Part shown: positions 2,894 through 60,904 of the stretch, piece after piece | How positions within the stretch are numbered: position 1 is the stretch's first letter | Layout: the number at the start of each line of letters is the position of its first letter | DNA from: Microbispora catharanthi | GTDB taxonomy: Bacteria; Actinomycetota; Actinomycetes; Streptosporangiales; Streptosporangiaceae | NCBI RefSeq assembly: GCF_006334915.2 | Contig: NZ_VDMA02000003.1 | Location: forward strand, 248,001-312,000 | DNA: 64,000 nt | Direction of reading: 5' to 3' | The notes under the pieces: model-generated | What the model saw: only the letters and a program-made list of their open reading frames with translations | The model's database searches: none | What the model was told of the DNA's origin: nothing | Program-made: the position numbers and the translations under genes

Positions 2894-3024
2894 CACTTCT
2901 CCCCTAGAACGGTCCAAAACGGTTATAGAGGCGGGCCGTATCCCCCGCCACCACCGCAAGAACTTCGCAACTCCTCTGTTACGCGAGAGCGCGGCCGTGT
3001 CTGGACTGCGGCGAAACACCACGG

Positions 3025-31938: not shown

Positions 31939-32038
31939 ACGACCTACGTCAAAGCGGGACCGCCGGGACACTGTGGAGATCACAAAGACGCCGCCGGATC
32001 AATATGCTGACTCCCATGCCCTCGGACAGGGAGGTGAC

Positions 32039-33451
32039 GTGCAGACCCGGAAGGACCTCTACCAGGCATACCGGCTGATGCAGCAGCGTCTCGGCCAGGC
32101 CCTGCTGCAGGGTGAGCCGGACGTCGCGGAGACGCCGATGCGGCGGCACACCCTGGCCACGTTCTGCGGGGTCCTGCTGTCGGTGCTCCTGCTCGCCGTC
32201 TTCGGCATCTGGGGTGTGATCAAGCCGGGCGGCGCCACCAAGCTCACCCAACCCGGCCAGCTCCTCGTCGAGCAGGACACCGGCGCGACCTACGTCTACA
32301 GCCAGCAGGAGCGCGTGCTGCTTCCCGTGGCGAACTACGTCTCCGCCCGGCTGCTGCTCGACACCGCCGACGTGACGGTGCGCGACGTCTCCGCCGCCTC
32401 GCTGGCCGCGCTGCCGCGCGGGCCGCTCGTCGGCATCCCCGGCGCGCCCGACTCGCTGCCGGCCAAGGACAAGCTGGTGCACGGACCGTGGTCGGTGTGC
32501 GTGGTGGACGGCCCCGACGCCACCGGGGCGCCGCGGCCGTACGTCACCTTGGTGGGCGGCGTGGACGTCGGCGGCAGGCCCCTCGGCGGCGGCGCCATGG
32601 TCGTGGACGACGGCCGGCAGAAGTGGGTCATCTGGGGCGACCGGCGGATGCGGGCGAGCTCCAGCGTGGTGAGCGCCCTGAACGCCCAGCCCAGGAAGGT
32701 GCCCGCGACCTGGCTCAACGCCATCCCCGAAGGCGTCGACTTCAGCGGCCCGAAGGTGCAGCACCTCGGCAGGAAGGTCCGGGGGCCCGAAGGCACGGTC
32801 ACGGCGGCGATCGGACAGGTCTTCACCGTGCCCGGCATCGGGGGCGCCCCCGCCCGCTGGTACGTCCTGCTGTCCGACGGCCTCGCGCCGATCACCCTTA
32901 CCCAGGCCACGCTCCTGCTGGCCGATCCGGCCATCAAGGCGGCGTACGGCAGGCGCCCCCCGCGGGCCGTCCCGATCGACGCGGCCACGGCCAACGCCTC
33001 ACTGTCCAAGCAGAGCGTGGTGGGCGGCGGGATGCCCGAGACGATGCCCACGGTGACCTCTCCCGCCTCCACCACGCCGCTGTGCGCGGTCTACTCCGGC
33101 ACCCGCGGCGGCTCGACACGGGCGACCCTGACCGTCGGCTCCTCGATCGCGATCCCCACGCCCAGGACCCCGGGCGGCCAGGAGACCTTCGACCAGGTGC
33201 TGCTCCCGCCGGGTATGGCGGCGGTCGCCGGCCTGCTGCCGGGCGAGGGGCAGCTGGGGTCGATCACGAACTACTTCCTGGTGACGGACCAGGGCCGCAG
33301 GTTCGCCGTCGCCTCGGCCGATCTGCTGCCGAAGCTCGGCTACGACGCCTCCGACGCCACGCCGGTGCCCGCACACCTGCTGCATCTCATCCCGGAGGGC
33401 CCGGCGCTCGACCCGGCCGCCGCCCGCGTTCCCGTGCCGCTCGGCAAGTAG
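32039..33451 (+). CDS. eccB: Type VII secretion core protein EccB
   Basis: Encodes 470 residues. GTG 32039 gives VQTRKDLYQAYRLMQQRLGQ, the standard EccB opening, with GGGAGG just upstream. One membrane helix lies near residues 43-65 (TFCGVLLSVLLLAVFGIWG), after a short cytoplasmic part containing the typical ETPMRRHTL. The rest is the large extracellular domain with repeats; two Cys (near 148 and 345) may pair. In mycobacteria EccB forms part of the inner-membrane pore with EccC, EccD and EccE. Here it is encoded apart from EccC/EccD, at the opposite end of the island. Confidence 0.93.
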   Translation: MQTRKDLYQAYRLMQQRLGQALLQGEPDVAETPMRRHTLATFCGVLLSVLLLAVFGIWGVIKPGGATKLTQPGQLLVEQDTGATYVYSQQERVLLPVANYVSARLLLDTADVTVRDVSAASLAALPRGPLVGIPGAPDSLPAKDKLVHGPWSVCVVDGPDATGAPRPYVTLVGGVDVGGRPLGGGAMVVDDGRQKWVIWGDRRMRASSSVVSALNAQPRKVPATWLNAIPEGVDFSGPKVQHLGRKVRGPEGTVTAAIGQVFTVPGIGGAPARWYVLLSDGLAPITLTQATLLLADPAIKAAYGRRPPRAVPIDAATANASLSKQSVVGGGMPETMPTVTSPASTTPLCAVYSGTRGGSTRATLTVGSSIAIPTPRTPGGQETFDQVLLPPGMAAVAGLLPGEGQLGSITNYFLVTDQGRRFAVASADLLPKLGYDASDATPVPAHLLHLIPEGPALDPAAARVPVPLGK

Positions 33452-33452
33452 G

Positions 33453-33983
33453 TCAGCCGTTGAGACGGCGGAAGTCGTCCAGATTCTGCTGGTAGAAGGC
33501 GATGTCCTCGGCCAGCCGGTCGCGCAGGAAGCAATCGGGCTCCGCCTCGCGGGCGGCCAGCCCCGCCTCGGTCCAGAACGCCTCGGCGGGCACCTCGTCC
33601 TCGCCGGGCGGGATGAACTTGAGCGCCTCCCCGAGCGCGTCCCTGGCCGCCTCCCAGCCGCTCACCACCCGCTGGAAGAGCCTCTCGTCCCCCGGCTCCT
33701 CGGTGTATTCGAGGTCGTCGGCGAGCGCGCGGCGCGCGTAGCCCGCACCGGCGAGCCGCCACTGACCGGGGTCGATCAGCTCGGACAGGCCGACGCCGAA
33801 CCGCTCCCCCTCGTCCCTGGCCTCCGCCTCGCTCGCGTACGGCACGAGCAGCTCGACCCCGCCGGACCGTACCGTCCACGCCTCGGGCCCCTCGACCGGC
33901 GGCTCCTCGCGTGCGGCCTCGTCCACGGTGAGCGCGAGATACAGCCGGGCCTCCGCGAGCGTCCGCGCGTACGGGATCGACAC
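33453..33983 (-). CDS. Small acidic protein, paralogue of the next gene; putative immunity protein or chaperone
   Basis: Encodes 176 residues from GTG 33983, chosen because it has GGAG six bases upstream and aligns exactly with the paralogue's start; ATG 33995 would add four residues. The sequence is acidic and soluble with no membrane segment. It shares with the upstream paralogue an ARLYLAL-like start, a DPG-W motif (ELIDPGQWRLAG), and the strongest block LKFIPPGEDEVPAEAFWTE. It is the last gene of the giant-protein operon, 22 bp from the paralogue, and ends 1 bp from EccB. Small acidic genes after a giant exported protein are often immunity proteins; no experimental basis is claimed. Confidence 0.7.
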   Translation of the reverse strand: MSIPYARTLAEARLYLALTVDEAAREEPPVEGPEAWTVRSGGVELLVPYASEAEARDEGERFGVGLSELIDPGQWRLAGAGYARRALADDLEYTEEPGDERLFQRVVSGWEAARDALGEALKFIPPGEDEVPAEAFWTEAGLAAREAEPDCFLRDRLAEDIAFYQQNLDDFRRLNG

Positions 33984-34005
33984 TGCCTGCTCCATTCCCC
34001 CTACT

Positions 34006-34515
34006 CTAGGCTCCGGCCAGCTCCCGGTAGGTGTCCCTCACGACGAGCAGCCGGTCGAGGCGGAACCGCCCCGGCTCGGCGGCGCGCACGGCGCGTCCCC
34101 GCTCCGACCAGAACGCGTCCTCGGGCACCTCGTCCTGCCCGGGCGGGACGAATTTGATCACTTCCTCGACCGCGGCCCGCGCGATGGACAGCGCCTGCCT
34201 CTCCCCGCCGTCCGGAACGTTGCCCGCCGTCAGGTCGGCCACCCACAGCCACTCGCCGGGGTCCAGCAACTCGGACGGCTCCGCGCCGCCGAACGTCGGG
34301 AAGCCCGTGGGCGTCACCTCCCGTTCCGGGAGTCCGAACAGGTGCTCCCGCTCGGCGCCGCACCCCGCGCACCGCCCCTCGTAACAGGTGACCAGCTCCC
34401 CCTCGACGCTCGCGAGGCCGCTGTCCCAGTCGGTGTCCGCCGAGCCGCAGGCGCAGGGGTTCAGGTCGAGATAGAGGTGCGCCTCGTCCCTGCTCCTGGC
34501 GATCGAGTAGGGCAT
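34006..34515 (-). CDS. Small acidic protein with Cys motifs; putative immunity protein or chaperone
   Basis: Encodes 169 residues starting MPYSIARSRDEAHLYLDLNP. The ATG shares one base with the stop of the giant gene (TGATG), so translation is coupled. It has two Cys pairs, NPCACGS near residue 21 and CYEGRCAGCG near 44-53, suggesting a zinc site absent from the downstream paralogue. The shared blocks are ELLDPGEWLWVAD and IKFVPPGQDEVPEDAFWSE. The role as immunity protein or secretion chaperone for the giant is inference from position and size. Confidence 0.72.
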   Translation of the reverse strand: MPYSIARSRDEAHLYLDLNPCACGSADTDWDSGLASVEGELVTCYEGRCAGCGAEREHLFGLPEREVTPTGFPTFGGAEPSELLDPGEWLWVADLTAGNVPDGGERQALSIARAAVEEVIKFVPPGQDEVPEDAFWSERGRAVRAAEPGRFRLDRLLVVRDTYRELAGA

Positions 34516-37500
34516 CACCCGTTCCTTACCTTTCGCTGCCCTGTGTCCTCCGGTGCGGGGACGGTTTCGTCCTCGTCGTCGGGCGGCTCCCAGCCGGAGG
34601 TGTTGCTGAGCCTGCGCATCCGCTCCCACAGGTCGGGGACCGGCGCCTGAGGCGGCACGGTGACCCACGGCGGCGGGGGCGCCGCCTGACCCCGCGCGCC
34701 GAGGTCGCGGGCGACCGCCTCGATCTCGTGCCGCAGCCGCGCTCGCTCCTCGTCCGAGGTCGTCGCCCTCCATCGGCGCGACAGGTAGGCGTGCTCGTTG
34801 TAGCGGGCGGAGGCACAGGCGTCGTAGCCGGGATCGAGGGCGTTCAGGAACCGGCGCACCGTCCCCTGCTCCGCCGCCGACCGCTTCTGCAGGGTGTCGC
34901 TGATCTCGTGCAGCAGCACCCGGGCCACCACGTCGGGGGCCAGCCTCGGCGCCAGCCGGATCACGTGCGGGCCGGTGCCCGCGTCGACCTCCGTACGCCC
35001 CGGGCGTCCGCCGCCGGGGTCCTCGGGCAGCACGACGAAGCGCTGCGTGCCGAACCGGGCGGTCTCGACGGTGACGACCGTGCCGTCCGGCGTCGCGGTC
35101 ACGGCGTGGACGCCCCGGCCGAAGTCCGCCGGGCGCAGGTCTGCGACGGCCGCGGGGATCTCGTCGTTCGACAGGTCGGGCAGGTGCGGGGCCCGGCCGT
35201 CGGCCACGAACGCGGTCCTGGGGATGGGCTCGGCCGTCACGCTGCCGGGCGGGGCGGTGATGAGGGCGGTGCCGCCCCAGGTGGCGTCCGCGGCCGTCTC
35301 GGGCACCGGCCAGCCCGGGTCGGCCGGCGCCGGCCGGGCGACGCCGAGGGCGTCGAGCCGTTCGCCGATGCGGTCGGCGAACCCGTCGGACCGCCCGCCG
35401 TACAGGTCACGCAGATCGAGGCCGTGCCCCTCGGCCAGCGCCACCAGGTCGGGCGGCACCGTGCCGAGGGCCTCGGCGAAGGGATCGCCGGACAGCTCGC
35501 CCGCGGGCGTGGCGCGGTAACGCTCGACGCTGCCGTCGGGCCGCGTGAGATGGAGGTGGACGTCGGCGCCGAGGTCGCGGGCGAGCAGCCTCGCCTCCGC
35601 CACGAGAGCCGTCGAACCGGGCGCCTGATTCATTCGGCCGATGTCGGCGACGATGCCCACCGGCAGCGTCCCCGTCCGTCCTCTGAGCGCCTCGGCCATC
35701 GCTCTGCTGGGGGCGGCCGGGTCGTACGACGGCTGCCTCGCGGCCAGCGCGCGCACGGTGTCGTGGGAGAAGAAGACGGCGGGCGCGGCCACCCTCTGCC
35801 GGTGGAAGTTCCACAGCGGCCGGGCGACGCCCGCGTCGCGGCGTGCCAGCATCTCCTCCAGCGCGTGCTGGAACATGATCAGGTGGGCCGTGCCGGTCGC
35901 GCCGTGCGGAATGTCCGCGGTCCGCAGCACCGTCTCCGCGCCGTCGCGCGCCACCTGGCGCACCTCGAACCGGAGGCCGAAGTCGACCCGGAACCTCACC
36001 TTGGCCCCGGTGCCCTTCACGAAGACGCTGGTCTCGTCGCGGTTGCCGCCGCTGCCCGAGCTCGACTGCGCGGTCTGGTCGCCGGCGCCGAAATCGGCGC
36101 CGGCGCCCACCGCGTGCCCGGCGCTGTACGTGCGGCCGAGCGGCGCCATCTGCCCCCGGTCGGTGGCCGTGCCGGCCGTGTTCTGCTCGCGGTCCACCTG
36201 CCCCAGTTCGGTGTCGTTGAGGCCCAGGGCCACCGGGTCGGGTTCGGAGAGGTCGGCGTGTATCCGCACGTCCACCACCTGGCCAGGTCTGCCCGGCATG
36301 GGCAGCCGGATGAGCCGGTGCCCGTCGGGGCCGGTCATCCGCTCCAGCCGGGTCGTGAGCCCGTTCCCGGTGAGCGCCTTGGCCAGCTCGGCGTAGTGCT
36401 CCATGGCGGCGGCCCCGCCGAGCAGGTCCTCCCGGGAGAGCCGGCCGAACACGGCGCGCAGCAGGTCGTCGGCCTTGAGCCGCTCGGTCACGAAGACCTC
36501 CGGCGGCACGACCCTCCGCACGTCGGGCCGGGCGGGCGGCCGCGCGGCGACCGTGCCCTCCTTCGCGACCATGCCGTCCGGCAGCACCCGGGTCATGGTG
36601 CCGCGCAGCGTGACGTGGCTGGTCCGGGGGACGCCGGTGGTCCTGGCGACGGCGCCGCGCAGGCGGCCCGACGACCGCTCGACCTCGATCCTTATGGTCA
36701 CCGGATGCTCGACGAGCTGCCCGCCGCGGAACGCCGCCGAACGCTGGATGCGGGTCCGCTGGGTGCCGGTGGAGGCCGTGCCGGTGTGCGAGCGGTCGGT
36801 GGCGACCGCTCGGCCGCCGCTGCCGACGTCCTGCCCGGCTCCGGCGTTCGCGCTGCCGCCGAACGTCTTGCCCGACGACTCGGCGCGGTCCTCCTGCGTG
36901 TATGTGTAGTCCTGGAGGATCTGGCCGAAGTTGTGGACGTTTCCGCCGTACGTCGCCTGGTCGCCGTGGAGCTCCGCCGTGATCCTGACCGTCACGTCCT
37001 CGGTGAGGTGCGGGCCGATCTTGAGCGAGTACGTCTTGACGAAGCCGGCCGACCCGGTCATGTCGTCGAGCTTGCCCCACCAGCGTTTGCCGGCGAAATC
37101 GCCGAACAGGCTGCGCAGCAGGACCGGGTCGCGCTTCAGCGCGCCGGGCGCCACCGTGCCGATCTGGCCGAGCACCTCGTCGAGCAGCCGGGTCCGCTTG
37201 CCGCCCGGGGTCGTGAGCCGGACCGACTTCACGGTGCTCTCGCCGAGGGAGTCCTCGTACAGGTCGGGGACGTCCACGCGGGTGGCCAGGTCCGGCAGCC
37301 TGTCGTGCATCTGCTTGAGCCGGTTCCCCGCGGCGGCCAGGCTCATCGGGAAGTCCTTGGCGAGCCGTTCGGTGAGCACGGCGCGAGGGTGCTTCTGCTC
37401 CAGGTCGGACCGGGGGTGGCCGTCCCTTCGCGCCAGCGCCCGGTCGGCCAGGTATCTGCGGACCAGCGGCACGGCCGTACGCGGGTCGAGCTGGAGGTTG

Positions 37501-40500
37501 CCGTCCAGCAGTCGCGTCACCGCGTCGGCCACCTGGTCGAGGGGCAGCTTGAGCTCGCTCCTGCCGTAGAGGTCGAGCGCGTCGCGCTCGGGGAGGGAGT
37601 AGACGACCGTCCTGTCCCGCAGCGGCTCGGCGTCGGCCCGCCGGTTGCCCGCCTCGTCCCCGGAAACCGTGATGTCCGCCTTCATCGCGAACACGTAGTG
37701 CTTGCCGGTGTCGATGGCCAGCCGTTCCCTGCCCCAGATCGCCGTGTCGGAGATCGAGGACGATCTGCTCCCCGCCCCGGACGCGCCGGCCTCCTCCTTG
37801 CCGCCGAGCGGGCCGGGCAGGGCCTCGTTCGCGCCGGTCGAGGCGTCCACCGACCGTCCGCCACGCGTCTCCATCCGCGTGGTGTGGGCGCCCATCGTGA
37901 AGTTGATGTCGCCGATCACCAGGTCGGCCGCGGTCACGAACGTCGACTCGCCCGGCTGGGCCGTGACCCACGCCGACGCCCGGTGCGTACGCAGGCCGCG
38001 CGGGCGGACGGCCAAGGCCGTGCTGTACGTCGTGGCGGGTCTGGCGGGGTCGGCGAGCAGCCATTCCGGGTGGGAGATGAGGTTGCGCATGTTGAACGCC
38101 TCGGCGAGGTGGTGGAACGACACCGAGCCCGGCCGCATCGCCCTCGGCAGCACCGATCGAAGGGCGTCGAGCACGCCGCTCCCGTCCACGTGCAGCAGGG
38201 TGGCCAGGCTCAGCGCCTCCGAGGACGTCGGATGGCTGGGCGAGGGCTCGGTCCGCTGCTCCGGCAGCAGGTCGGAGGGCAGCAGCACCCGCATCCACAC
38301 GTCGTCGCTCTGGGCCAGCGGCGTGACCTTTCCGTCGTCCTCGATCAGGTCCACGGTGAGCTTGTGGGGGACCTCGAAGACCGCCGCCGGAGCGGTGCCC
38401 TCTGCCAGCGTGACCAGGTTGCCCGTGTCGTTGAGGGTCGTGGAGAACGTGCGCCCCCTGCTCCAGTGGGCGCCGAACCCACCGCCGGTCGAGCCGGCCT
38501 CGCCCGGATTCGTCTCCAAGCCGAGACCGGGGCCGACGTCCCGGGCCCGGCCGCGCGACCGGCCGGCCGAGCGGCCGGAGGTCTCCGACGAGATGTCGAG
38601 GTCGGTCACGACGTCGGCGGCGCTGGTGCCCTGGAACTCCTCCTGGCCCGACTGCTCCAACCGGATGCGCACAGTGAGGTGCCGGCTGGCCCGGCCGATG
38701 CCCTGGCTCACCAGGTCGAGGAAGATCCCGTCCTGCATGGCCTGGTCATACGCGGTCTGCAGACGGGCCGGGGAGAACTGCTCGGCCAGCTCGATCATGT
38801 TGGCGATCTGGCTCGCCCGGGTCAGCGGATCACGCGACAGCCGGCCGTTCTCGTCCGGCAGCAGGCCGCGCGCACGCAACGCCGCCTCGACCTTCGCGCG
38901 CACCTCGTCGAGGTTCCTGGCGCTCCCCGGCCGCTCGCTCGCCTGGACGAGCGCGGGCCCGGCTCCGGTGCCGTGCGACCAGCCGGGCAGCCTGGGCAGG
39001 CGGCCCTTCGGCGTGCCGGGCTTCGGGTCGTCCCTGAGCCTGCCGTCCTTCCGTACGGCCGACCGGTCGACGGGAAGGCCGTAGCGGTACGCCTGCGGCT
39101 CCGGCATGCGGAACAGGCCCGTGCTCCGGCCGCGTATGGGGGCATGCGGGGCGTCGTCGGTGTTCATCTGCACGGTCACCGTGTGCTCGAGCTCCAGCGC
39201 GTACGCCTGGGTGTGGCCCGCCCAGCGCTGCACACTCGGCCGGATGGCGGTCCCGCCCGCGCTCATCGACCGCGACCGCGACCAGGAGCGGCCGAGCCCG
39301 CCCGTGAGGCGCGGTGTGGCGGTCTTGTATCCGTCGAGACCGACGGCGCCGAGCATGTGCCGGTCGCCGACGGGAAGCTGGACTCCCGCGGTGCCCTTGA
39401 TCTCGAAGGACCGGCCGGCCGAGCGCGAGCCCGACGCGCCCGAGAACCCCACGCGCAGCCGTTCCAGGCGGTGCTTGGTGCTCGGCGTGCCGACCGGCCG
39501 CGCCGTGTCCATCACGACCCGGGTCTTGATCCGCACATAGCCGACCACCCGCCCGTTGACGGTGATCGGGCGGCGCAGCCCCTCGGGATCGTTGATCGCC
39601 TCGCCGAGCCGGGCCGGCAGCTCCTCCGTCATGATCGTGAGGATCTGGTCGCGGGTCATACTGCCGATCTCGGAGTGGCCGGTCCGCTCCGCGGTGCGCT
39701 CGGCGAGGTCCTGCAGCCCGGTCAGCCCGGTGACCGCGTGCTCGGGGAACGGCGTGCGCTGCCGCTCCTTCCGCGAGAGCCGGGTGACCTCGGCCGGCCC
39801 CCGCTGCGCGTGCGTGTGCGGCAGATACACCTGCAGGCTCCGGGCGTCGCCGGCCGTGCCGCTGTCCACGCGCGCCCGCTCGGTGCCGGTCGCGGTGCGC
39901 AGCTCCACCTCCGCCGAGGCGAGCCCGTCGAGCACCAGCGCCTCGCCCGCGTTGTCCTGCACCGCGCCGGCCAGCGCGAAATCCGACGCGTTGCCGCTGA
40001 ACGACTCGCTCCTGCCGAAAGCGGTGCCCCCCTTGAACAGGCCGAACTTCATCAGCATCCCGAGCCAGTGGGTGTCCTGCCACGGCTTGGTCAGGGCGTT
40101 CAGGTCGAGATTCGGCGCCAGGCGCACCGCGCGGTTGGCGGTGGCGGAGGCCGAGCGGCCGCCCTGCGGCAACTGGCCGAGCATCGACTGGGAATGCCGC
40201 ACCGGATGGCCGAAGACCTCGACCAGGTCCGTGACCTTCAGCCGCAGCCGCAGCTCGGCCCGCGTGCCGCGGCCCACGCGCAGCACCACGCCGTCCTGCG
40301 AGACCAGCCACCTGAAGTTCGACCGCAACACGTGCGACAGCTCGTCGGGCGCGTAGCGCTGGTCGACGCCGGCGCGTTCGAGCATCTCGTTGACGACCTG
40401 CGTGAGCCGTTCCAGGTGGGGCAGCCGGCCCGCCGGCGTCGCCTCCGTCATGGCCTCGGACGACGGCAGGGCGTCCGCGAACGCCTCCTTGTACGCGGTG

Positions 40501-43500
40501 TGGGCGGCCTCCGCCTCCCGGGCCAACCCGGCGATCTCCGCGGGCAGCGTGCCTTTCCGGCCCGTGGGGAGGGCGTTCAGGGCGTTCTCCAGCGTCTCGT
40601 ACGCCGTGCGCGCCTCGACCGCCCGCCGCACCGCCCGCGCGTACGCCTCCTTGCTCCGGCGGGCGCGCTCGGCGCTCGCCCGGTGGACGTCGCGGTCCGC
40701 CAGCGCCTTGCGGCGGCGTTCCTCGGCGCCGCGGTCCTCTTCCTGCGACGCCTTCTCGGCGGCCTCCTCGGCCTTCTTCGCGTCGGCCTTGGCCGCCCTG
40801 GTGCTGTCGATCTTCTCCTTGACCGCTCTGAGCAGTTCGTCGGCGGCGTTCGCCAGCGTCTCCCGCTGGGTGCGGGCCAGCCCGAGCAGGTCCGCCACCG
40901 GATCGGGCGCGGTGGGGCTCTGCGCGGTGGGGCTCTGCGTGGTGGAGGTCTGCGCGGTGGAGGTCTGTGTCGTCGGGTCGGGCGCCGGCTGGGATGCGGT
41001 GGGTGGCCGGGGCGCCGACCAGGGGGGCGCCGGGGCGACGTGCCCGAGCCTCTCGATCTCACGCCCCAGTCGCTCGATCTCGTGCGCGATGGCGGGGCGC
41101 TCCTGCGCCGGGGCCGCCCGCCACTGCCGGTCCAGGAGCGCGTGCTCGCGATAGCGGGCCGTCACACAGGCCGTGGCGTCCGGCTCGGCCGTACGGCTCA
41201 GGAAGGAGCGGATCACGCCCTGCCGGGGGCCGGACATCCGCTGGAAGACGTCGCTGATCTCGTGCAGCCACACTCGGGGCAGGATGTCGTTCGCCAGGCG
41301 CGGCGACAGCCGTACGACGTGGGGGTCTGCGGCCGTGCCCGACCGGACCCTGGTCCTGGCGAGACGGCCGCCGGGCACCCGACCGATCTCGAACCGGAAG
41401 TGCTGCGCGCCGAGCCGGCCCGTGTCCACGACGACCGTCCGCTCGCCGGCTGTGCTCAGTCCTGTCGTGTCCGGGCCCACGTCGGACGCGTGGAGCGACA
41501 GGAAGCCCTGCTCCGCCTCCTGCGACGACAGGTCGGCCAGGTGCGGCGGCCTGCCGTCGGCGACGAACAGGCTCCGCGCGATGGGCCGGGCGGTCACCCG
41601 GCCGCGCCCCCGGGTCGTACGCGGTCCCGGCCGCGTGCCGGACGGCCCCTTCCCCGGCCCCGGCGGGTTGGCTGTTCGAGCGGAGTTCGTCGCCGGAGCA
41701 GGCCCTGGGTTGGAGGAGGCCGCGCTGTTCGAGGAGACCGCGGCGGACTGGCCTCCGCTCGCCGTGTTGGCTGTCCCGTTCGCGCCGGAGGTGGACGGGA
41801 TCCCGGCGAGACTCTCGGCGCGCCTGACGATGTCCGCGGCGGTGTCGGAGGAGCGGCCGACGCGAAGGGCGTGGTCGGGTCCGTGCGGCGGGACCGCCGC
41901 CTCCTCCACCAGTCCGGCCCCCGCGTCGCTCAGCCGGTCGGGCCGCCAGCCGCGCGGGTTGTCCTCCAGCACCTCGCCCGCCACCTCGACGGCGGCGGCG
42001 CGGCTGTCCGGCGTCGCGTCGGCGAGCCGGGCGAGCGCGTCGAGGGCCCCCTCGACCGGGAGCCCCTGGCTCTCCTCGGCGATCCTCGCCCCCAGCAGCG
42101 CGGCCGCCTCCGCGCGGAGCCGAGGTGTGTCCACGCCCTCGGCGGCACGCGTCGTCAGCCGATCCGCGAGGCCCTTCATGTCCTCGCCCGACAGCTGCAC
42201 CGGCCTTCCGTCAGGACCGGTCAGCCTGGCGCCCCGGCCGTCACGCAGGAAGAGCACGTCGGGCGCGATCGTGAACAGCACATCGGAGACCGCCGTGCGA
42301 GCCGAAGCGTGCGCCGCGGCGGCGCTGCCGGAGGTGGTGCCGCCGGTCGTCCCCGAGGACGCCACCGGTGCCGGGGCGGCCGGTGACGCCGCGGCGGATG
42401 ACGTGGTGCCGCCGGAGGGAGAAGCGGACGACGGCGCGACGGACGACGGCGTCCCCGTGGACGCGGCCGGCGTGGACGTCGCAGCGGAGGTGACGGGCGT
42501 GTTCGCGGAGCCGGCAGCAGTGGGATTGGCCGCCGCCGCGCTGCTCGCGCCGGCCGTGTTCGCCGCGCCGGCCGTGTTGCTTGAGCCGGCCGCGCCGGGG
42601 TTGGCACCGCCCGTGCCCGTCGCCGGGGCGGGATTGGCGGTGGCCGGCTGGCCCGACGCGCTCTGCGCTGCCGCCGGCGCCTGACCGGGATTCGCGGCGG
42701 ACGGGCCCGCCGCGCTCGCGTTGCCCGTGTTGCCCGCGTTCGACGCACTGCCGGACGCACTGCCGGAACCGGCCGCGCCGGGGTTGGCACCGCCCGCGTT
42801 GGCGGTACTGGCTGTGCCGGGGTTCGTCGTGCTCGCACCGGACTGTGCGGGGGACGGCCCGGTGGTGGCGGGCTGGCCGGAGCCGCCGGGTGCGGCGGGC
42901 GGGCCGCCGGAGGGCTGCCCCACGACGGACGCGGTGCTCGTGCCGCCCGAGCCCGTGGACCCGCCGTTGCCTGCGGTCTGACCGCCGCCGGCCGTATTCG
43001 TGTTCGCGGAACCCGGATCGCCGCCAGAAGGCTGTCCGGCGGCGGGATCCGGAGACGTACCGGAAAGGGCGCGGATCAGGTCGGTACGCAGGCTGGTGTC
43101 GTACGCCGAGGCCAGGGCCGTACGCGGGCTGATGCCCGCCTCGATCACGTCCGGGTTGAACGGGCTGATCGTGTTCGTACGGGCGGCGCCCGACGCGGCG
43201 GCCCCGAGCAGCGACTCACCGTCGGGCATTTCCCACTGGCCGTACACGAGCCCGTTGGCGAGGACGCTCCCGGCCGGGGAGGCGATCACGTTGGTCAGGC
43301 CGGTCGTCAGCGCCCGGCCGGGAAAACGCTTGAACGCGTTGCCGAAGCCGGGGGCGTCGGTGTTCAGCCTTCTGAGCAGGGGCGTCCTGTTGACCAGGTT
43401 GCTGACGGGACGCGCGGCCCGCATGCCGACGGCCGCGCCGCCCGCCGCGCCCAGGGCGGTGGCGCCCGTCATCTTCAAGTCCCAGCCGTCGCGGGTGCCT

Positions 43501-44291
43501 GCCTTCCGCTGTTCCGACTGGGCGAAGGCGTCGCCGGCGACCTCCTCGCCGATCTCCTCGAAGAGCTCCCTCCCCAGGGGGTTGGCGAGGATGCGACCGA
43601 GCAGGCCGGCCCGGAGCGAGGCCAACGCGGTCCCTCTGGCCAGCGCCTGGGCCGCGGCGGGACGGCCTGCGGCGAGGGCGAGCTGTTCGAAGATCTTCTC
43701 CATCTCGGCGCGGGCGCGGGCGGCGATCGGCCCGACGAACCGGGTGGAGGCCCCGGCGGAGTAGAAGGCCGCGAGAAGCGCGATGAACGTCGCGATCAGC
43801 GCGATCCAGAACACCGCGTTGTCCGACAACTTGGAATATTGGGTCGAGCGGGCGTAGTTGTCGGCCTGCGCGGCGTAGGCGAAGTGGTTGTTCGCCACCC
43901 CGAGCAGGCCCGACTGCTCCGAGTAGTGCTCGCCGAGCCGCGCCAGGAACGCCTGCATCGACGGGCCCTGCATCCCGCTGAGCACGGCGACGGCGGCGGC
44001 TCCCACCGGATCGATGGACTGGACGACGCTCACGGTCGCGGAGCGGTGGGCGCGGGCGAGCTGCCACAGCAGGCTCTCGCTCGCATCCGGCCATGTCTGG
44101 CCCGCCGTGAGCAGGGCGATGAGGTCGTCGGCCCAGGCGGGCAACGACTCGCCCCAGGCGGGGGTGACGTCGGTGACCGAGCCGCCGCCGTCGGCGAACT
44201 CGGGCAGCCCGTCGCCGTTCGAGGTGACGTCGCCGTTCGTCGTGGCCGGCTTGGCGCCGGAGCCCGTACCGGTCGTGGAGGAGTGCGTCAT
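34515..44291 (-). CDS. Giant 3258-residue WXG100-like T7SS-associated protein, putative polymorphic toxin or pore
   Basis: The largest gene here. Order: residues about 30-200, a WXG100-like helical region (GQTWPDASESLLWQLARAH); a membrane helix at 157-179; about 411-660, Gly/Ser/Ala/Asn/Pro low complexity; module A about 898-1095 with HEISD at 1010-1014; about 1131-1244, a Lys/Glu/Ala coiled coil; six beta-hairpin modules near 1335-1489, 1583-1730, 1869-2007, 2091-2237, 2417-2570 and 2670-2805; module B about 3020-3215 with HEISD at 3128-3132; a short acidic tail. No known toxin catalytic motif was recognised. It follows a YbaB-like and a WXG100-like gene (gap 2 nt) and overlaps a putative immunity gene. 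Export by the nearby T7SS is inferred. Confidence 0.88.
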   Translation of the reverse strand: MTHSSTTGTGSGAKPATTNGDVTSNGDGLPEFADGGGSVTDVTPAWGESLPAWADDLIALLTAGQTWPDASESLLWQLARAHRSATVSVVQSIDPVGAAAVAVLSGMQGPSMQAFLARLGEHYSEQSGLLGVANNHFAYAAQADNYARSTQYSKLSDNAVFWIALIATFIALLAAFYSAGASTRFVGPIAARARAEMEKIFEQLALAAGRPAAAQALARGTALASLRAGLLGRILANPLGRELFEEIGEEVAGDAFAQSEQRKAGTRDGWDLKMTGATALGAAGGAAVGMRAARPVSNLVNRTPLLRRLNTDAPGFGNAFKRFPGRALTTGLTNVIASPAGSVLANGLVYGQWEMPDGESLLGAAASGAARTNTISPFNPDVIEAGISPRTALASAYDTSLRTDLIRALSGTSPDPAAGQPSGGDPGSANTNTAGGGQTAGNGGSTGSGGTSTASVVGQPSGGPPAAPGGSGQPATTGPSPAQSGASTTNPGTASTANAGGANPGAAGSGSASGSASNAGNTGNASAAGPSAANPGQAPAAAQSASGQPATANPAPATGTGGANPGAAGSSNTAGAANTAGASSAAAANPTAAGSANTPVTSAATSTPAASTGTPSSVAPSSASPSGGTTSSAAASPAAPAPVASSGTTGGTTSGSAAAAHASARTAVSDVLFTIAPDVLFLRDGRGARLTGPDGRPVQLSGEDMKGLADRLTTRAAEGVDTPRLRAEAAALLGARIAEESQGLPVEGALDALARLADATPDSRAAAVEVAGEVLEDNPRGWRPDRLSDAGAGLVEEAAVPPHGPDHALRVGRSSDTAADIVRRAESLAGIPSTSGANGTANTASGGQSAAVSSNSAASSNPGPAPATNSARTANPPGPGKGPSGTRPGPRTTRGRGRVTARPIARSLFVADGRPPHLADLSSQEAEQGFLSLHASDVGPDTTGLSTAGERTVVVDTGRLGAQHFRFEIGRVPGGRLARTRVRSGTAADPHVVRLSPRLANDILPRVWLHEISDVFQRMSGPRQGVIRSFLSRTAEPDATACVTARYREHALLDRQWRAAPAQERPAIAHEIERLGREIERLGHVAPAPPWSAPRPPTASQPAPDPTTQTSTAQTSTTQSPTAQSPTAPDPVADLLGLARTQRETLANAADELLRAVKEKIDSTRAAKADAKKAEEAAEKASQEEDRGAEERRRKALADRDVHRASAERARRSKEAYARAVRRAVEARTAYETLENALNALPTGRKGTLPAEIAGLAREAEAAHTAYKEAFADALPSSEAMTEATPAGRLPHLERLTQVVNEMLERAGVDQRYAPDELSHVLRSNFRWLVSQDGVVLRVGRGTRAELRLRLKVTDLVEVFGHPVRHSQSMLGQLPQGGRSASATANRAVRLAPNLDLNALTKPWQDTHWLGMLMKFGLFKGGTAFGRSESFSGNASDFALAGAVQDNAGEALVLDGLASAEVELRTATGTERARVDSGTAGDARSLQVYLPHTHAQRGPAEVTRLSRKERQRTPFPEHAVTGLTGLQDLAERTAERTGHSEIGSMTRDQILTIMTEELPARLGEAINDPEGLRRPITVNGRVVGYVRIKTRVVMDTARPVGTPSTKHRLERLRVGFSGASGSRSAGRSFEIKGTAGVQLPVGDRHMLGAVGLDGYKTATPRLTGGLGRSWSRSRSMSAGGTAIRPSVQRWAGHTQAYALELEHTVTVQMNTDDAPHAPIRGRSTGLFRMPEPQAYRYGLPVDRSAVRKDGRLRDDPKPGTPKGRLPRLPGWSHGTGAGPALVQASERPGSARNLDEVRAKVEAALRARGLLPDENGRLSRDPLTRASQIANMIELAEQFSPARLQTAYDQAMQDGIFLDLVSQGIGRASRHLTVRIRLEQSGQEEFQGTSAADVVTDLDISSETSGRSAGRSRGRARDVGPGLGLETNPGEAGSTGGGFGAHWSRGRTFSTTLNDTGNLVTLAEGTAPAAVFEVPHKLTVDLIEDDGKVTPLAQSDDVWMRVLLPSDLLPEQRTEPSPSHPTSSEALSLATLLHVDGSGVLDALRSVLPRAMRPGSVSFHHLAEAFNMRNLISHPEWLLADPARPATTYSTALAVRPRGLRTHRASAWVTAQPGESTFVTAADLVIGDINFTMGAHTTRMETRGGRSVDASTGANEALPGPLGGKEEAGASGAGSRSSSISDTAIWGRERLAIDTGKHYVFAMKADITVSGDEAGNRRADAEPLRDRTVVYSLPERDALDLYGRSELKLPLDQVADAVTRLLDGNLQLDPRTAVPLVRRYLADRALARRDGHPRSDLEQKHPRAVLTERLAKDFPMSLAAAGNRLKQMHDRLPDLATRVDVPDLYEDSLGESTVKSVRLTTPGGKRTRLLDEVLGQIGTVAPGALKRDPVLLRSLFGDFAGKRWWGKLDDMTGSAGFVKTYSLKIGPHLTEDVTVRITAELHGDQATYGGNVHNFGQILQDYTYTQEDRAESSGKTFGGSANAGAGQDVGSGGRAVATDRSHTGTASTGTQRTRIQRSAAFRGGQLVEHPVTIRIEVERSSGRLRGAVARTTGVPRTSHVTLRGTMTRVLPDGMVAKEGTVAARPPARPDVRRVVPPEVFVTERLKADDLLRAVFGRLSREDLLGGAAAMEHYAELAKALTGNGLTTRLERMTGPDGHRLIRLPMPGRPGQVVDVRIHADLSEPDPVALGLNDTELGQVDREQNTAGTATDRGQMAPLGRTYSAGHAVGAGADFGAGDQTAQSSSGSGGNRDETSVFVKGTGAKVRFRVDFGLRFEVRQVARDGAETVLRTADIPHGATGTAHLIMFQHALEEMLARRDAGVARPLWNFHRQRVAAPAVFFSHDTVRALAARQPSYDPAAPSRAMAEALRGRTGTLPVGIVADIGRMNQAPGSTALVAEARLLARDLGADVHLHLTRPDGSVERYRATPAGELSGDPFAEALGTVPPDLVALAEGHGLDLRDLYGGRSDGFADRIGERLDALGVARPAPADPGWPVPETAADATWGGTALITAPPGSVTAEPIPRTAFVADGRAPHLPDLSNDEIPAAVADLRPADFGRGVHAVTATPDGTVVTVETARFGTQRFVVLPEDPGGGRPGRTEVDAGTGPHVIRLAPRLAPDVVARVLLHEISDTLQKRSAAEQGTVRRFLNALDPGYDACASARYNEHAYLSRRWRATTSDEERARLRHEIEAVARDLGARGQAAPPPPWVTVPPQAPVPDLWERMRRLSNTSGWEPPDDEDETVPAPEDTGQRKVRNG

Positions 44292-44293
44292 GG

Positions 44294-44644
44294 TCAGATC
44301 CGCTTCAGGATCTCGCGCACCTCTCTGGCCCGTTCGGCGTCCATTCCCCGGGCGTTCTCGGCGCTGCGCCGTACGGTGGGGCCGAGCTCGACCACCTTCG
44401 CGGCGAGTTCCTCACCCTGCTTCATCACCGTCTCGGGTCCGTCGCCCTGCATGTAGGCGGAGCGGAAGGCGGTCCCGGCCGTGTCGTGCCCCCACGGCTC
44501 GGCGGCGTTGAGCCGCCGGATCTCCCGCAGGCTGGCGGCGTAGCCGCTCTCCGCGTCGGACGACGCGGCATGCCACTGCGACAGGCCCTTCGCGAGCTGC
44601 TGCGGACGGATGTCGACGTAGTTCACCTCGAACAGCTCACTCAT
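44294..44644 (-). CDS. WXG100-like small protein, likely partner of the giant
   Basis: Encodes 116 residues, mostly helical. A W-G turn occurs at PWGHDTAG (residues about 50-57), which resembles W-x-G but lacks the spacer residue. The ATG overlaps the stop of the YbaB-like gene (ATGA), and its own stop is 2 nt from the giant's ATG. In ESX systems, a small WXG protein often pairs with a larger partner carrying a WXG-like region; this gene is the natural partner for the giant's N-terminus. That pairing is inference. Confidence 0.8.
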   Translation of the reverse strand: MSELFEVNYVDIRPQQLAKGLSQWHAASSDAESGYAASLREIRRLNAAEPWGHDTAGTAFRSAYMQGDGPETVMKQGEELAAKVVELGPTVRRSAENARGMDAERAREVREILKRI

Positions 44645-45063
44645 GGGCCCTCCGGTGTCCGCTTCGGCATCTGCATCGACATCTGTTCGAGCACGGCGTC
44701 GAGGTCGCCGTCGATGTGCGCCCTCATCTGCTCGGCGGGGATGAGCGGCGCGAAGATCTCGACAACCCGGTCCTGGGCCTTGGCCACGGCGGCGTGGATG
44801 GTCCGCGTGATGGCGTCGGCCAGGCCGCGCGCGTCCTGCCGCCGGTAGATGCGCGGGTCGAGGTCGAGCCTGATCAGGTCGCCGTTCGCGCCGACGGTGG
44901 CCGCCACGAGCCCGTCACGCGACTTCTCCGTCACCTGCACGGCGCGCGCCTTCTCGTGCAGCGCGGGCGCCTCCTCCTGCAGGCGCATGAACGTGGCCCG
45001 CAGTTCCTCGACGTACGCCCGCATTCCGGCGGCGTCCGGCGTCTGTGCCCCGGTCGTGTTCAT
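44641..45063 (-). CDS. YbaB/EbfC-like protein of the T7SS locus
   Basis: Encodes 140 residues from ATG 45063 (GTG 45066 is directly adjacent). The middle part, GLVAATVGANGDLIRLDLDP followed by an L-x-x-A-I helix, matches the YbaB/EbfC fold, which in other bacteria binds DNA as a dimer. Related proteins recur in ESX loci, where EspL is a YbaB-like chaperone-type factor. As first gene of the giant-protein operon it may help fold or stabilise the substrates, or bind nucleic acid. A possible -10 GATAAT lies at 45121-45116 upstream. Confidence 0.78.
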   Translation of the reverse strand: MNTTGAQTPDAAGMRAYVEELRATFMRLQEEAPALHEKARAVQVTEKSRDGLVAATVGANGDLIRLDLDPRIYRRQDARGLADAITRTIHAAVAKAQDRVVEIFAPLIPAEQMRAHIDGDLDAVLEQMSMQMPKRTPEGP

Positions 45064-48168: not shown

Positions 48169-48938
48169 CAGAGGGACATCGGAGGCATGAAGGACGGCGT
48201 CTTCGGCATGTCGTTCACATCGGGAAGGGGATCGGTGAGACCGCCGGTGGTCCCGTCGAAGGCGACCTTGGCCTTGGTGAAGTCGGGCGCCTGCATCGTG
48301 ACGGCCTGCATGCCGGGGAGCTTCTGCTGCGTGCCGGCGAAGAGGTAGGTGACTCCCGTGAAGATGGCGGCGACCTTCCAGCTCACCTTCCCCAGGGCCG
48401 CGAACACTCTCTGCGCGACCCTCGACAGGGAGGCCATCGCCCCTGTCACAACGGGCTGGATCGCGGCCATCGCGAGCGGGTTGGCCCTGGAAGCGGCGCT
48501 GGCGCTCGCCAGCGTCATCGCCGCCCCGCCGATCGACAGCGAGATGTAACTCGCGACCGTATAGAGCTGAGCCGCGGAGTCGAGGCTGTCGCCGACGCCC
48601 TTCATGCCCCTGTCCAGCCCGTCGAGCTGGCTGTCCAGCTCGGTGAACTTCTGCTTGACCGCGGTCAGCATCCGCCCCTTCAGATGGTCGTTCGACTCGA
48701 GCGCGGTGAGCTGTCCGTGCAGATCCTTGCGCAGCTGCCCGATGTCGGCGGGCGGCTGGCCGTCCTCGCCGCCCTCGTTGCGCCACTCGCGCGCGCCCCG
48801 CGACATGGAGTCGGGATCGGCGATCATCGTGGCGAGCAGCCCCGCCAGCGTCAGCGCGCTCGGCTCAAGCATCGCGGCCGAGGCCGCCAGGCCGGCGCCG
48901 GTGATGAAATTGCTCCGGGCGCTCCAGATGTCCACCAT
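48168..48938 (-). CDS. T7SS-associated membrane-interacting protein with WXG-like helices
   Basis: Encodes 256 residues. Long amphipathic helices occupy residues about 60-130. Three hydrophobic Gly/Ala-rich stretches follow: SYISLSIGGAAMTLASASAA near 130-150, a second near 155-170, and VSWKVAAIFTGVTYLFAG near 186-203. The N-terminus also contains two short hydrophobic stretches. The C-terminus is Pro/Met-rich. No signal peptide. It lies 3 nt after the Gly-rich substrate gene and overlaps the SseB-like gene, so it belongs to that operon. It may be exported or sit at the membrane; the family is not named. Confidence 0.65.
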   Translation of the reverse strand: MVDIWSARSNFITGAGLAASAAMLEPSALTLAGLLATMIADPDSMSRGAREWRNEGGEDGQPPADIGQLRKDLHGQLTALESNDHLKGRMLTAVKQKFTELDSQLDGLDRGMKGVGDSLDSAAQLYTVASYISLSIGGAAMTLASASAASRANPLAMAAIQPVVTGAMASLSRVAQRVFAALGKVSWKVAAIFTGVTYLFAGTQQKLPGMQAVTMQAPDFTKAKVAFDGTTGGLTDPLPDVNDMPKTPSFMPPMSL

Positions 48939-50060: not shown

Positions 50061-50251
50061 AGCACCCTCCAGCCGATTCCCGGCAGATTGCGTTTTCAAC
50101 TACTTACGGCCGAGTCACCACAAAGCTCGCAAATCGTACAAATCCCCTAACCGGCCGTCTGACAAAACCGCAAGAGACGTGACAAAATCTTAATCTCGGA
50201 CAGCCCCGGCATGCCCCCCGCTGATCCATTACTGTGACTTTTGGGTCATCA

Positions 50252-50270
50252 CCCGACCCTCCTGGTCGGG
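50252..50270 (+). promoter_or_regulatory. Hairpin in the leader of the Esx operon
   Basis: A 7-bp perfect stem CCCGACC/GGTCGGG with a 5-base loop CTCCT ends 20 bp before the GGAGGTGA ribosome-binding site of the first WXG100 gene. It might protect the transcript 5' end or modulate translation of these abundant small proteins; no regulator is implied. Confidence 0.45.
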
Positions 50271-50299
50271 GGAATTCGACAGGATCAGTGGAGGTGACC

Positions 50300-50650
50300 A
50301 TGTCGCACTCTGGCGCAAGCCAGGCCCAAGTGAGCCGGCACGACCTGGACGAGGCGATCACCTGGATCGGCGACGCGGCCGAGAACATCCGCGGCATCCA
50401 GCGCTACCTGGACGGCGCCGGCGAGAACCTCAAGGTCCACTGGCAGGGTGAGTCGCACCACGCGTTCAACAAGGTGCACCTGCTGTGGCACGAGCGCATG
50501 GACGTCATCCTGGGCAGCCTGCAGACCCTCGCGGAGAGCATCAGGGCGAACAACAAGAACTACGCCGAGTTCAACGCGCAGGCGACCGCCGAGATCAACA
50601 AGATCGAGGCGCTCATCAACCAGGCCCCGCCCGCCTCGTACAGCCGCTGA
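50300..50650 (+). CDS. WXG100 family protein (EsxB-like)
   Basis: Encodes 116 residues. ATG 50300 follows GGAGGTGA, the best ribosome-binding site in the region. Two amphipathic helices flank a central W-Q-G at residues 48-50 (VHWQGES); a second W-I-G lies at 22-24. It forms a pair with the next gene, 39 bp downstream, in the usual esxB-esxA arrangement, so an exported heterodimer is likely. The C-terminus is AINQAPPASYSR-like, with a Tyr close to the end. Confidence 0.92.
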   Translation: MSHSGASQAQVSRHDLDEAITWIGDAAENIRGIQRYLDGAGENLKVHWQGESHHAFNKVHLLWHERMDVILGSLQTLAESIRANNKNYAEFNAQATAEINKIEALINQAPPASYSR

Positions 50651-50689
50651 GACCGAGACGACCACCAGGAACGGACGGAGAGCGCGACG

Positions 50690-50989
50690 GTGGACTTCGA
50701 CATCACAAAGGTCAACTTCAGCGGTCTCGACACCGGCGAGACCGAGTTCCAGAACGCCTTCAACAGGCTGGTCACGGAGCTGGAGAACCTCGAGAACAAG
50801 CTCAACACCAAGACCGCGATCTGGCAGGGCAGCGCCAAGGACGCCTACGACCAGACCAGGCGGATCTGGCAGCAGGAGGCCAAGGGCCTGTCGGACATCG
50901 TGTCCCTGCTGGCCAAGAACATCAACATCACCAACATGAACATGCAGGACGTGGAGCGGATCAACGCCGCCATGTTCGACGGCAAGTAG
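50690..50989 (+). CDS. WXG100 family protein (EsxA-like)
   Basis: Encodes 99 residues from GTG 50690. The W-Q-G turn is at residues 45-47 (AIWQGSAKDAY), and the heptad pattern of both helices is clear (LVTELENLENKL before the turn). Length and order match the second member of an Esx pair. It should dimerise with the product of the gene 39 bp upstream. Confidence 0.92.
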   Translation: MDFDITKVNFSGLDTGETEFQNAFNRLVTELENLENKLNTKTAIWQGSAKDAYDQTRRIWQQEAKGLSDIVSLLAKNINITNMNMQDVERINAAMFDGK

Positions 50990-59352: not shown

Positions 59353-60831
59353 TCAGCCGGACAGGCCGCGCACCCAGGCGTACAGGTCGAGCACGCCCAG
59401 CGTGAGCGGGATCAGCGCGACGATCAGCAGCGCGTCGAGGATGTCGGCCGCCCGCCCCCAGAACGGCGAGGGCCTGCCCGTGGGCAGCCAGAGACCGAGA
59501 CCGAGCACGAGCAGGGCCGTCCACAGCACCCCGATCGTCACGGCCACCTCGACGACGGCGTCGGCGCCCGTGCCCAGCGCGAACGCCAGGGCGGCGGCCC
59601 CGGCCACGGCGGCGAGGACCATCCACAGCCGCTGGGCGACCCCCGCGAAGACCCTCGCCCGCATGGCCAGCGCCAGCGCCAGCGTCGCCGCCGTCACGCG
59701 GGCGACCCAGCCGCCGTGCTGGACGAGCAGCAGCTCCCCCGCGACACCGGCGAGCGCGATCGCGATGACCATGCCGGTGGCGTACCGGTGGGCCTGCGCG
59801 GTCCGCTGGAGCACCAGCGGGCCGTCGATCCGCTGGTTGTCGCCGCGCAGCTCCTCGGCGCTGGTGGGCAGCGGCGGCAGCGGCACCCTGGCCATCCGGA
59901 ACGACAGCGTGGGGATGAGCGGGCTCAGCGCCAGCAGTGCCGTCGCGACCACGGCCGCCGCCCCGGCGCCCGATCCCCCGAACACCATCACGCACCCGGC
60001 TCCGACGGCCCCGGCGACGGACGCGACCGCGACGCCGAGGAAGCCCGCCACGCCGTCGGCGATCAGCACGCCGCCCACGGTCGCCACCAGCGCGGTGTAC
60101 GCGAGCCCGGCCAGCAGGTTGGGCGCCCCGAGGACCAGCACGGCGCCCGACGCGCCGGGCGTGAACAGCCCGGCGAGGAAGCCGTGCGGCAGGGCCGCGT
60201 AGCCGACGAGGGCGCCGGCGGTGGGCCGGCCGACGGCCCTGGACACCACGGCCCCCGCGGCGAGGAGCAGCACCGCGACGGCTCCGGCCACTCCGGCGGT
60301 GAGCCGCGGCGGGGCCGCCGCCAGCGCGAGGACGACGGCGCCGAGCGCGAGCAGCCCGGCGGCCACGCCCATGCCGAGCAGCCTCGTGTGCCGCGGCTCC
60401 CACCTGCCGCCGCCTTCCTTGGTCCCGGTGGCGACGACGTCGGCCACGTCGTCGTACACCGCGGGCGGCAGCACCGCGTCGCGCGGGCGCAGGTAGAGGA
60501 CCTCTCCGTCCAGGACGCCCAGCGCGCCCAGGCTCTGGCCGAGGTCGAGCGGCGGGCCGCCGAGGCGCTGGAGCACCCAGCCGGGGGCCGCGGCCGCGTC
60601 GCCTCCCGCCTCGCCGACCGCCCGGAGCAGTCCGGGCATGACGTGCGGCAACGGGATGTCCGACGGCAGCGCGAGGTCCGCCTTCCTGCGCGGGGCGACC
60701 ACGGTGACGTGGCACAGGGGCGGCAGCGGCACGGTCGCCTGTGGCAACGCGCCCTGCTGAACCGGGCCATGTTGAACCATGCCCTGCTGGACGACACCCT
60801 GCTGGATGTGAAGGGGGGCCGGCGATGACAC
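59353..60831 (-). CDS. eccD: Type VII secretion membrane protein EccD
   Basis: Encodes 492 residues. GTG 60831 is chosen because GAGAGGA lies eight bases upstream; an in-frame ATG at 60882 would add 17. Residues about 15-45 hold repeats of the V-Q-Q-G type. A ubiquitin-like domain spans about 45-115 (CHVTVVAPRRKADLALPSD). The remaining sequence carries about 11 membrane segments, as in EccD. In ESX systems EccD dimers form the membrane core around EccC and EccB. Its gene diverges from EccC with about 70 bp between starts. Confidence 0.9.
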   Translation of the reverse strand: MSSPAPLHIQQGVVQQGMVQHGPVQQGALPQATVPLPPLCHVTVVAPRRKADLALPSDIPLPHVMPGLLRAVGEAGGDAAAAPGWVLQRLGGPPLDLGQSLGALGVLDGEVLYLRPRDAVLPPAVYDDVADVVATGTKEGGGRWEPRHTRLLGMGVAAGLLALGAVVLALAAAPPRLTAGVAGAVAVLLLAAGAVVSRAVGRPTAGALVGYAALPHGFLAGLFTPGASGAVLVLGAPNLLAGLAYTALVATVGGVLIADGVAGFLGVAVASVAGAVGAGCVMVFGGSGAGAAAVVATALLALSPLIPTLSFRMARVPLPPLPTSAEELRGDNQRIDGPLVLQRTAQAHRYATGMVIAIALAGVAGELLLVQHGGWVARVTAATLALALAMRARVFAGVAQRLWMVLAAVAGAAALAFALGTGADAVVEVAVTIGVLWTALLVLGLGLWLPTGRPSPFWGRAADILDALLIVALIPLTLGVLDLYAWVRGLSG

Positions 60832-60904
60832 AGCGGGAATCCTCTCCCGAAGATCTCTCTGACAGCCCGAAAATATCGGCAAACCTGGTAGAAAAGTCAG
60901 TCAG

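Follow-up and report, generated by a model that had tools for sequence, protein, structure and literature searches.

What is a 3258-residue protein doing among the genes of a type VII secretion system (T7SS), packed tightly together with four small genes? The question is raised by a 64,000-nucleotide stretch of DNA from the soil actinobacterium Microbispora catharanthi, here called the window (G000:C33:248001-312000 of a 9.25-Mb genome, with Microbispora as its nearest relatives). Five genes follow one another on its minus strand, in transcription order a YbaB-like gene, a WXG-like gene, the giant, small1 and small2, joined by a 4-nt overlap, a 2-nt gap, a 1-nt overlap and a 10-nt gap (-4/+2/-1/+10 nt). 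An earlier note on this DNA had described such a co-oriented set, with overlaps or gaps of 1-22 nt, and had read it as a polymorphic-toxin operon of chaperone, partner, effector and double immunity. The layout is borne out here, and so are the YbaB-like gene, the length of the giant and its place between EccB and the EsxB/A genes. From the polymorphic-toxin logic, the single operon, a chaperone candidate and a T7SS-type N-terminal domain stand, but the immunity role fares less well. Our overall reading, to which we give roughly an even chance, is that the cassette serves the production and export of a single giant T7SS effector, which would bear a hairpin delivery trunk and a payload and have small1 and small2 as its partners. 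The reading is built on the gene order and make-up of the cassette, its domains, the homology among modules, the co-occurrence with T7SS genes, the predicted hairpins and the sharing of the trunk.

The cassette recurs across genera and accompanies the T7SS

Searching 200 genomes of the family with the C-terminal HEISD module of the giant, we found matches in 38. We fetched 38 stretches from 36 genomes, amounting to 37 loci (L062 and L063 are one); the window is not counted. The match in G011, which was not fetched, lies in a 557-residue frame (E 4e-4) that is not a giant. Small1 stands beside the giant in 37/37 loci (in L058 only as a 76-residue remnant), small2 in 29/37, and a YbaB gene is present in 31 of the 38 stretches, several of the remaining ones being truncated at the stretch boundary. 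Two loci, L051 and L062, have the small genes upstream of YbaB in divergent orientation. Since the cassette recurs across genera, it is not a chance arrangement. The earlier note had named giants devoid of any T7SS or small-gene neighbours, or an unrelated enzymatic function of the giant, as findings that would speak against it; every fetched locus has small1 beside its giant, and the Pfam, NCBIfam and PDB searches returned no such function.

Scanning GTDB contigs with small1 gave 98 relatives, and the best 80 of them, which were kept, belong to Streptosporangiaceae, Thermomonosporaceae, Kribbella and Micromonosporaceae, with one Streptomyces and one Pseudonocardiales record. Small1 matches occurred in 73 of 297 genomes of the order, some of them weak (E 1e-46 to 1e-4, for example G135, G039, G199, G307 and G175), and G189 has a strong small1 match with no HEISD-module match. 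In Streptosporangium sp. KLBMP 9127, small1 stands alone (L099 9992-10510), and the 10 kb to either side of it contain no giant.

We checked whether EccB (PF05108), a T7SS core protein, keeps company with the giant. Of the 200 genomes, 105 encode EccB. It is found in 37/37 genomes with a giant frame (>= 2455 residues) compared to 68/163 of the remainder, and among the 38 genomes with a module match only G011 lacks it; these counts carry no P value because the genomes are related. Among 10 sampled genomes of the window's genus, the seven with a giant have EccB and the three without one (G065, G119 and G168) have none. The absence of both from these three looks as though the island had been gained or lost whole. 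EccB lies within 30 kb of the giant in 18/37 loci only, which weakens a linkage by distance alone, and we therefore rest the T7SS link on co-occurrence. The giant itself carries an N-terminal WXG100_2 domain that the earlier note did not mention (PF25547, 36.8 bits against a cut-off of 27). Thus, the T7SS setting proposed in that note is supported, and the co-occurrence with EccB together with this domain makes export of the giant by the T7SS likely, as judged from sequence.

Six homologous modules form a block of long hairpins

The earlier note had also described six hairpin modules in the giant. Performing hhalign comparisons between them, we find 11 of the 15 pairs at 86.9-96.1% (pair 2-4 over 19 columns only) and the remaining four at 67.5, 65.3, 38.3 and 13.7%, while all 30 module-versus-other pairs stayed at or below 2.7%. 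By these profile comparisons, the six modules are homologous. AlphaFold2 predicts all six as very long β-hairpins, with confident arms and several tips that are not. Alternation analysis detects amphipathic strand pairs in five of the six modules; in module 4, only the return strand passes. The hairpin tips are weakly hydrophobic. The description of the block therefore holds.

We then looked at giants of Micromonosporaceae, in which small1-like genes lie beside giants with known effector ends in seven of eight tested cases (L144 has none). These giants end in RHS and CdiA_C domains (L141), GT4-conflict (L142, L146 and L149), the calpain-type Peptidase_C2 (L139 and L147) or ART and PI3/4-kinase (L137); in L139, small1 is on the opposite strand and two frames off. 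Modules 1-6 occur in order in the 8061-residue giant of L141 (L153+L154) and the 6650-residue giant of L146 (L156), and were not found at E 1e-3 in L152, L155 and L157+L158. The block is thus present in two of five giants read at small1 loci; L159, taken as the L147 locus, turned out not to be. A class-wide scan, which scored three candidates per genome and gives a lower bound, found the block in 7 of 394 genomes, namely four genomes from the same family as the window, G446, G671 and, marginally, G372 (E 5e-4). G446 has open frames of 19630 and 12384 residues with several diverged sets of hairpin modules (L168-L171 on G446:C17; L172-L174 on G446:C23). Small1 is not found beside every WXG100_2 giant, as other WXG100_2 frames in G330 have none on their contigs.

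Near the window the giant ends are much alike, and differing effector ends follow the same trunk in L153+L154 and L156. As the block is also found in other giant toxin-like proteins, it may be a delivery device rather than the toxin itself. In our model, it would serve these giants as a common delivery trunk and might form a β-barrel within one chain.

Relatives of the giant mostly have 2.9-3.9 thousand residues, one having 4.5 thousand. In a 40-frame alignment, which includes one opposite-strand frame (L061_12168), conservation runs along the whole giant and is lowest in the linkers. In domain scans, neither the giant of the window (Pfam and NCBIfam) nor two Nonomuraea giants showed a known toxin domain at their C-terminal ends. 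The earlier impression of an unfamiliar effector architecture is supported. A C-terminal zincin-like module was seen in 32/37 loci and in none of the other five (L051, L060, L061, L064 and L068). Four Kribbella-like frames have no such module either, and Nonomuraea giants extend a few hundred residues behind it with the tail motif retained; these cases rule out a constant C-terminus everywhere. In the relatives' majority consensus, CxCPxxxPCxCG comes after LxNxTGWxPPEE, and the cysteines are absent from the window's tail. A TGA was flagged in the G178 giant, whose frame reads 3219 residues; we draw nothing from it.

Small1 and small2 resemble partners more than immunity proteins

The duplicated HEISD module of the earlier note is confirmed, since its two copies in the giant are homologous (hhalign 100%). 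Weakly scoring profile and fold matches point to the IrrE/PprI and DUF6782 zincin-like metallopeptidases, and a Glu 37 residues after the HEXXH Glu is invariant. The C-terminal copy reads HEXXH in 35 of 44 readable rows. In the window, both copies read HEISD, so the protein lacks the HEXXH expected of a zincin metallopeptidase. With Asp at the third metal position, the Microbispora copies may bind metal differently or be non-catalytic.

Could these modules be protease toxins, each neutralised by one of the small genes, as in a classical T7SS polymorphic toxin? We regard this as possible but rather unlikely. The small genes do lie directly downstream of the giant, and their products are paralogous by cross-hits and acidic (isoelectric points 4.45 for small1 and 4.26 for small2), just as the earlier note had stated. 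Microbispora and most Nonomuraea loci combine two modules with two paralogues. The following counts also speak against our view of the small genes. Small2 is absent from 6/7 loci without the N-proximal module compared to 2/30 with it, these two being one locus at a contig edge and one in which small1 is degraded too. In a 62-row set (L072 and L146 left out by hand, rows below 400 residues dropped), 50 rows have both module and small2, 6 the module only, 5 neither and 1 small2 only, so that small2 is missing in 5/6 rows without the module versus 6/56 with it. Small1-like genes number 2-7 in seven of nine Micromonosporaceae genomes, mostly in arrays, which resembles immunity. The 11043-residue frame of an Actinocatenispora (L157+L158, G323:C75, the genome of L137), with four zincin-like modules and ART and PI3/4-kinase matches, is followed by four small1-like genes.

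However, the co-loss is confined to one clade of the tree and is thus one event, and the tree requires two module changes and five small2 changes. Six rows hold a module with no small2 in the stretch (five of them, not L128, from minus-strand giants cut by the stretch), and one row has small2 without the module. Sinosporangium has five modules against two small genes. A small-gene number equal to the HEISD number, suggestive in places and fitting many loci, fails in Kribbella, Actinoallomurus, Sinosporangium and divergent Nonomuraea loci, and its support comes down to the one co-loss clade. Small1 is retained where the modules read HEXXD; with both Microbispora copies of that kind, there is perhaps no protease to neutralise.

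We also compared conservation by the median identity between the window and other genera, dropping matches that covered less than half of the query. Small1 reaches 69% (n=30), close to YbaB at 67% (25) and EccB at 64% (n=5). The giant's N-terminus follows at 48% (27) and small2 at 46% (26, some being small1 cross-hits). The zincin-like modules stand at 36 and 38% (29 each), giant residues 2890-3000 at 38% (30), the coil at 36% (14), WXG at 35% (25) and the hairpins at 34% (31). The four cysteines of small1 are invariant in 28/28, and its best outside matches are weak Zn ribbons. Being far more conserved than the modules, small1 is unlike what is expected of a specific immunity protein. Moreover, we did not find immunity-type co-variation of small1 with a toxin domain, in view of these identities and of the different effector ends beside which small1 homologues lie, some of those giants having zincin-like traces. 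We do not claim that small1 occurs without zincins; six of nine genomes had no module match, but a looser scan found a zincin-like domain in L155 (5e-11) and weak zincin-like traces or HEXXH strings in other such giants. In summary, a chaperone or adaptor role of small1 and small2 is somewhat likelier, at about an even chance on these comparisons, an immunity role is plausible with a smaller probability, and double immunity is doubtful.

Other explanations of the giant

The zincin-like modules might instead act as processing peptidases on the giant itself, cleaving it while it is exported or afterwards, with the hairpin block as the membrane-active agent. The C-terminal copy keeps HEXXH in most rows, and passages of a survey of polymorphic toxins describe releasing metallopeptidases (PMC3482391). 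We consider this explanation improbable, as both copies are HEXXD in the window's genus and the C-terminal copy sits at the extreme end, where little is left to release. Less probable still is an adhesin or wall-structure protein on the producer's own surface, in which the hairpins would be a rigid stalk processed or anchored by the zincin modules and no target cell would be involved: T7SS can export structural proteins, the giant is conserved over its full length with no hypervariable end in the 40-frame alignment, and its hairpin tips are weakly hydrophobic, but in other giants RHS-CdiA_C and GT4-conflict domains come after this block, which is an effector-type setting.

Features of the cassette and its surroundings

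The YbaB domain is present in the first protein of the cassette (PF02575, 52.5 bits, E 5.6e-14), and the NCBIfam equivalog TIGR00103 scores below its cut-off (29.7 versus 49.45). The WXG100-like partner claimed earlier exists as a gene whose position upstream of the giant is conserved among relatives; its product has no Pfam or NCBIfam match and carries PWG instead of WxG. The G+C content at third codon positions is 0.91-0.94 in the YbaB-like gene, the WXG-like gene, the giant and small2, which the gene caller lists. Small1 is absent from this list because its mechanical 255-residue frame overlaps the giant; as a gene, it is backed by homology. EccB lies directly downstream of the cassette on the opposite strand.

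Table 1. Features of the cassette, its giant protein and the T7SS context (residues of the giant in brackets)
Feature	Position in window	Strand	Basis
YbaB/EbfC-family protein, 140 residues, candidate EspL-like T7SS chaperone	44641..45063	-	PF02575
WXG100-like partner, 116 residues, conserved PWG	44294..44644	-	homologues beside giant
Giant, 3258 residues, 340 kDa	34515..44291	-	
WXG100_2 domain (62-186)	43734..44108	-	PF25547 E 4.9e-9; own-genome search 6.7e-11
Hydrophobic, transmembrane-like stretch (155-183)	43743..43829	-	hydropathy scan
Low-complexity Ala/Ser/Gly/Thr/Pro linker (about 400-660)	42312..43094	-	composition
Zincin-like module 1, HEISD at 1010 (900-1101)	40989..41594	-	hidden Markov model, motif table, hhalign, AlphaFold2
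Predicted antiparallel coiled-coil hairpin (1125-1290)	40422..40919	-	AlphaFold2 helices, giant 1131-1183 and 1189-1239 (model 247-299, 305-355)
Hairpin module 1 (1290-1540)	39672..40424	-	strand alternation, hhalign, AlphaFold2
Hairpin module 2 (1540-1720)	39132..39674	-	strand alternation, hhalign, AlphaFold2
Hairpin module 3 (1800-2040)	38172..38894	-	strand alternation, hhalign, AlphaFold2
Hairpin module 4 (2045-2300)	37392..38159	-	hhalign, AlphaFold2; alternation: return strand only
Hairpin module 5 (2340-2590)	36522..37274	-	strand alternation, hhalign, AlphaFold2
Hairpin module 6 (2595-2830)	35802..36509	-	strand alternation, hhalign, AlphaFold2
Conserved alpha/beta segment behind hairpins (2885-3000)	35292..35639	-	
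Zincin-like module 2, HEISD at 3128, HEXXH in most other rows (3019-3222)	34626..35237	-	
Conserved C-terminal tail LxNxTGWxPP(EE) (3225-3250)	34542..34619	-	alignment of relatives
small1, 169 residues, C-x(1,2)-C ... CxxC zinc-ribbon-like N-terminus	34006..34515	-	Cys conservation; weak Zn-ribbon matches
small2, 180 residues, small1 paralogue without those cysteines	33453..33995	-	small1/small2 cross-hits
EccB, T7SS core (context)	31973..33451	+	PF05108 E 9.4e-88
Two WXG100 genes, EsxB/EsxA-like (context)	50234..50989	+	PF06013
EccD (context)	59353..60882	-	PF19053 E 9.6e-91

Further genes surround the cassette. Two more YbaB-family genes lie adjacent to each other at 56995-57761, and two FtsK/SpoIIIE (EccC-type) ATPases are found in the one island, at 22878-27638 (1586 residues as a mechanical open reading frame) and at 60905-64000, the second extending past the window end. 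The product of a 479-residue gene adjoining EsxB/A (51460-52899) weakly matches WXG100 at its N-terminus (E 1.1e-4, which does not reach the cut-off of the family) and may be a further T7SS substrate. Shortly upstream of the cassette, a mechanical open reading frame (46897-48786) matches the SseB N-terminal domain (E 5.4e-7). TadE-like and T2SSF genes at 16816-19587 form a Tad-pilus-like cluster beside the T7SS island.

Discussion

How would such a cassette work? We infer that the YbaB-like protein, as an EspL-like chaperone, and the WXG-like partner would bind the WXG100_2 domain of the giant and take it to the EccB/C/D machine. In the cytosol, the conserved partners small1 and small2 would maintain the giant in a soluble, inactive or export-competent state. 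Once it is outside the cell, its six long predicted β-hairpins, all on one chain, would come together in a single shared β-structure, which may be a barrel of 12 strands, and this trunk would carry the C-terminal part into or across the envelope of a target. The C-terminal zincin-like module, where present, would be an enzymatic or docking payload, and in distant relatives the same trunk would carry other effector domains. A bolder version is tentative, and we would sooner bet against it: one polypeptide would form a closed pseudo-hexameric β-barrel from its six modules and serve by itself as a translocation pore for different C-terminal effectors, and small1 and small2 would represent a new family that guards the giant in the cytosol or adapts it for export.

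To our knowledge, it is not settled how T7SS toxins, once on the surface of the producer, enter a neighbouring cell. For this delivery step, the conserved six-hairpin block, which recurs in giants whose ends differ, offers a concrete candidate, testable on one purified protein. If true, the single-chain barrel would be a built-in delivery device of T7SS toxins, playing a part like that of RHS shells or filamentous stalks. The small1/small2 family raises a second question, whether its members are immunity proteins or chaperones of a new kind that serve giant T7SS substrates. Literature searches of titles and abstract openings, outside the subscription literature, found no prior description of the cassette, the six-hairpin block, its sharing or the small1/small2 family. 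Actinobacterial giant toxin-like proteins with metallopeptidase modules (PMC3482391) and EspL as a YbaB-type T7SS chaperone (PMC6319747) are already known from the passages on them in those papers.

The T7SS polymorphic toxins with WXG/LXG N-termini, as surveyed in passages of Zhang et al. 2012 (PMC3482391), share with the cassette an N-terminal WXG-type domain, a small partner gene, nearby T7SS genes and small acidic genes downstream; RHS/CdiA_C and GT4-conflict domains form the ends of two relatives that possess this hairpin block. Unlike these toxins, the giant devotes about 1500 residues to a six-hairpin block in the place normally taken by RHS or filamentous repeats, the members scanned show no known C-terminal toxin domain, and the downstream genes are more conserved than the supposed toxin module. 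The same survey describes an actinobacterial multi-toxin giant with two lethal-factor-like metallopeptidases, two caspases and three ARTs in one protein, similar in giant size and in having several metallopeptidase-like modules per chain (compare L157+L158); the six-hairpin block and the YbaB/small1/small2 cassette do not appear in its passages on such giants. EspL, the YbaB-type ESX-1 chaperone of mycobacteria, is proposed in passages of PMC6319747 to act as a chaperone with T7SS substrates. The YbaB-like protein resembles it as a small protein of that type, by family and not by direct sequence comparison, but here its gene heads an operon with a giant substrate. IrrE/PprI and DUF6782 resemble the zincin-like modules in the HEXXH helix of most relatives and the invariant Glu, and differ from the window's HEISD copies. 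For the hairpin block as modelled, the comparison group would be β-barrel pores (gasdermin, MACPF/CDC) and one-chain outer-membrane barrels (autotransporters), whose amphipathic long β-hairpins are predicted here as well.

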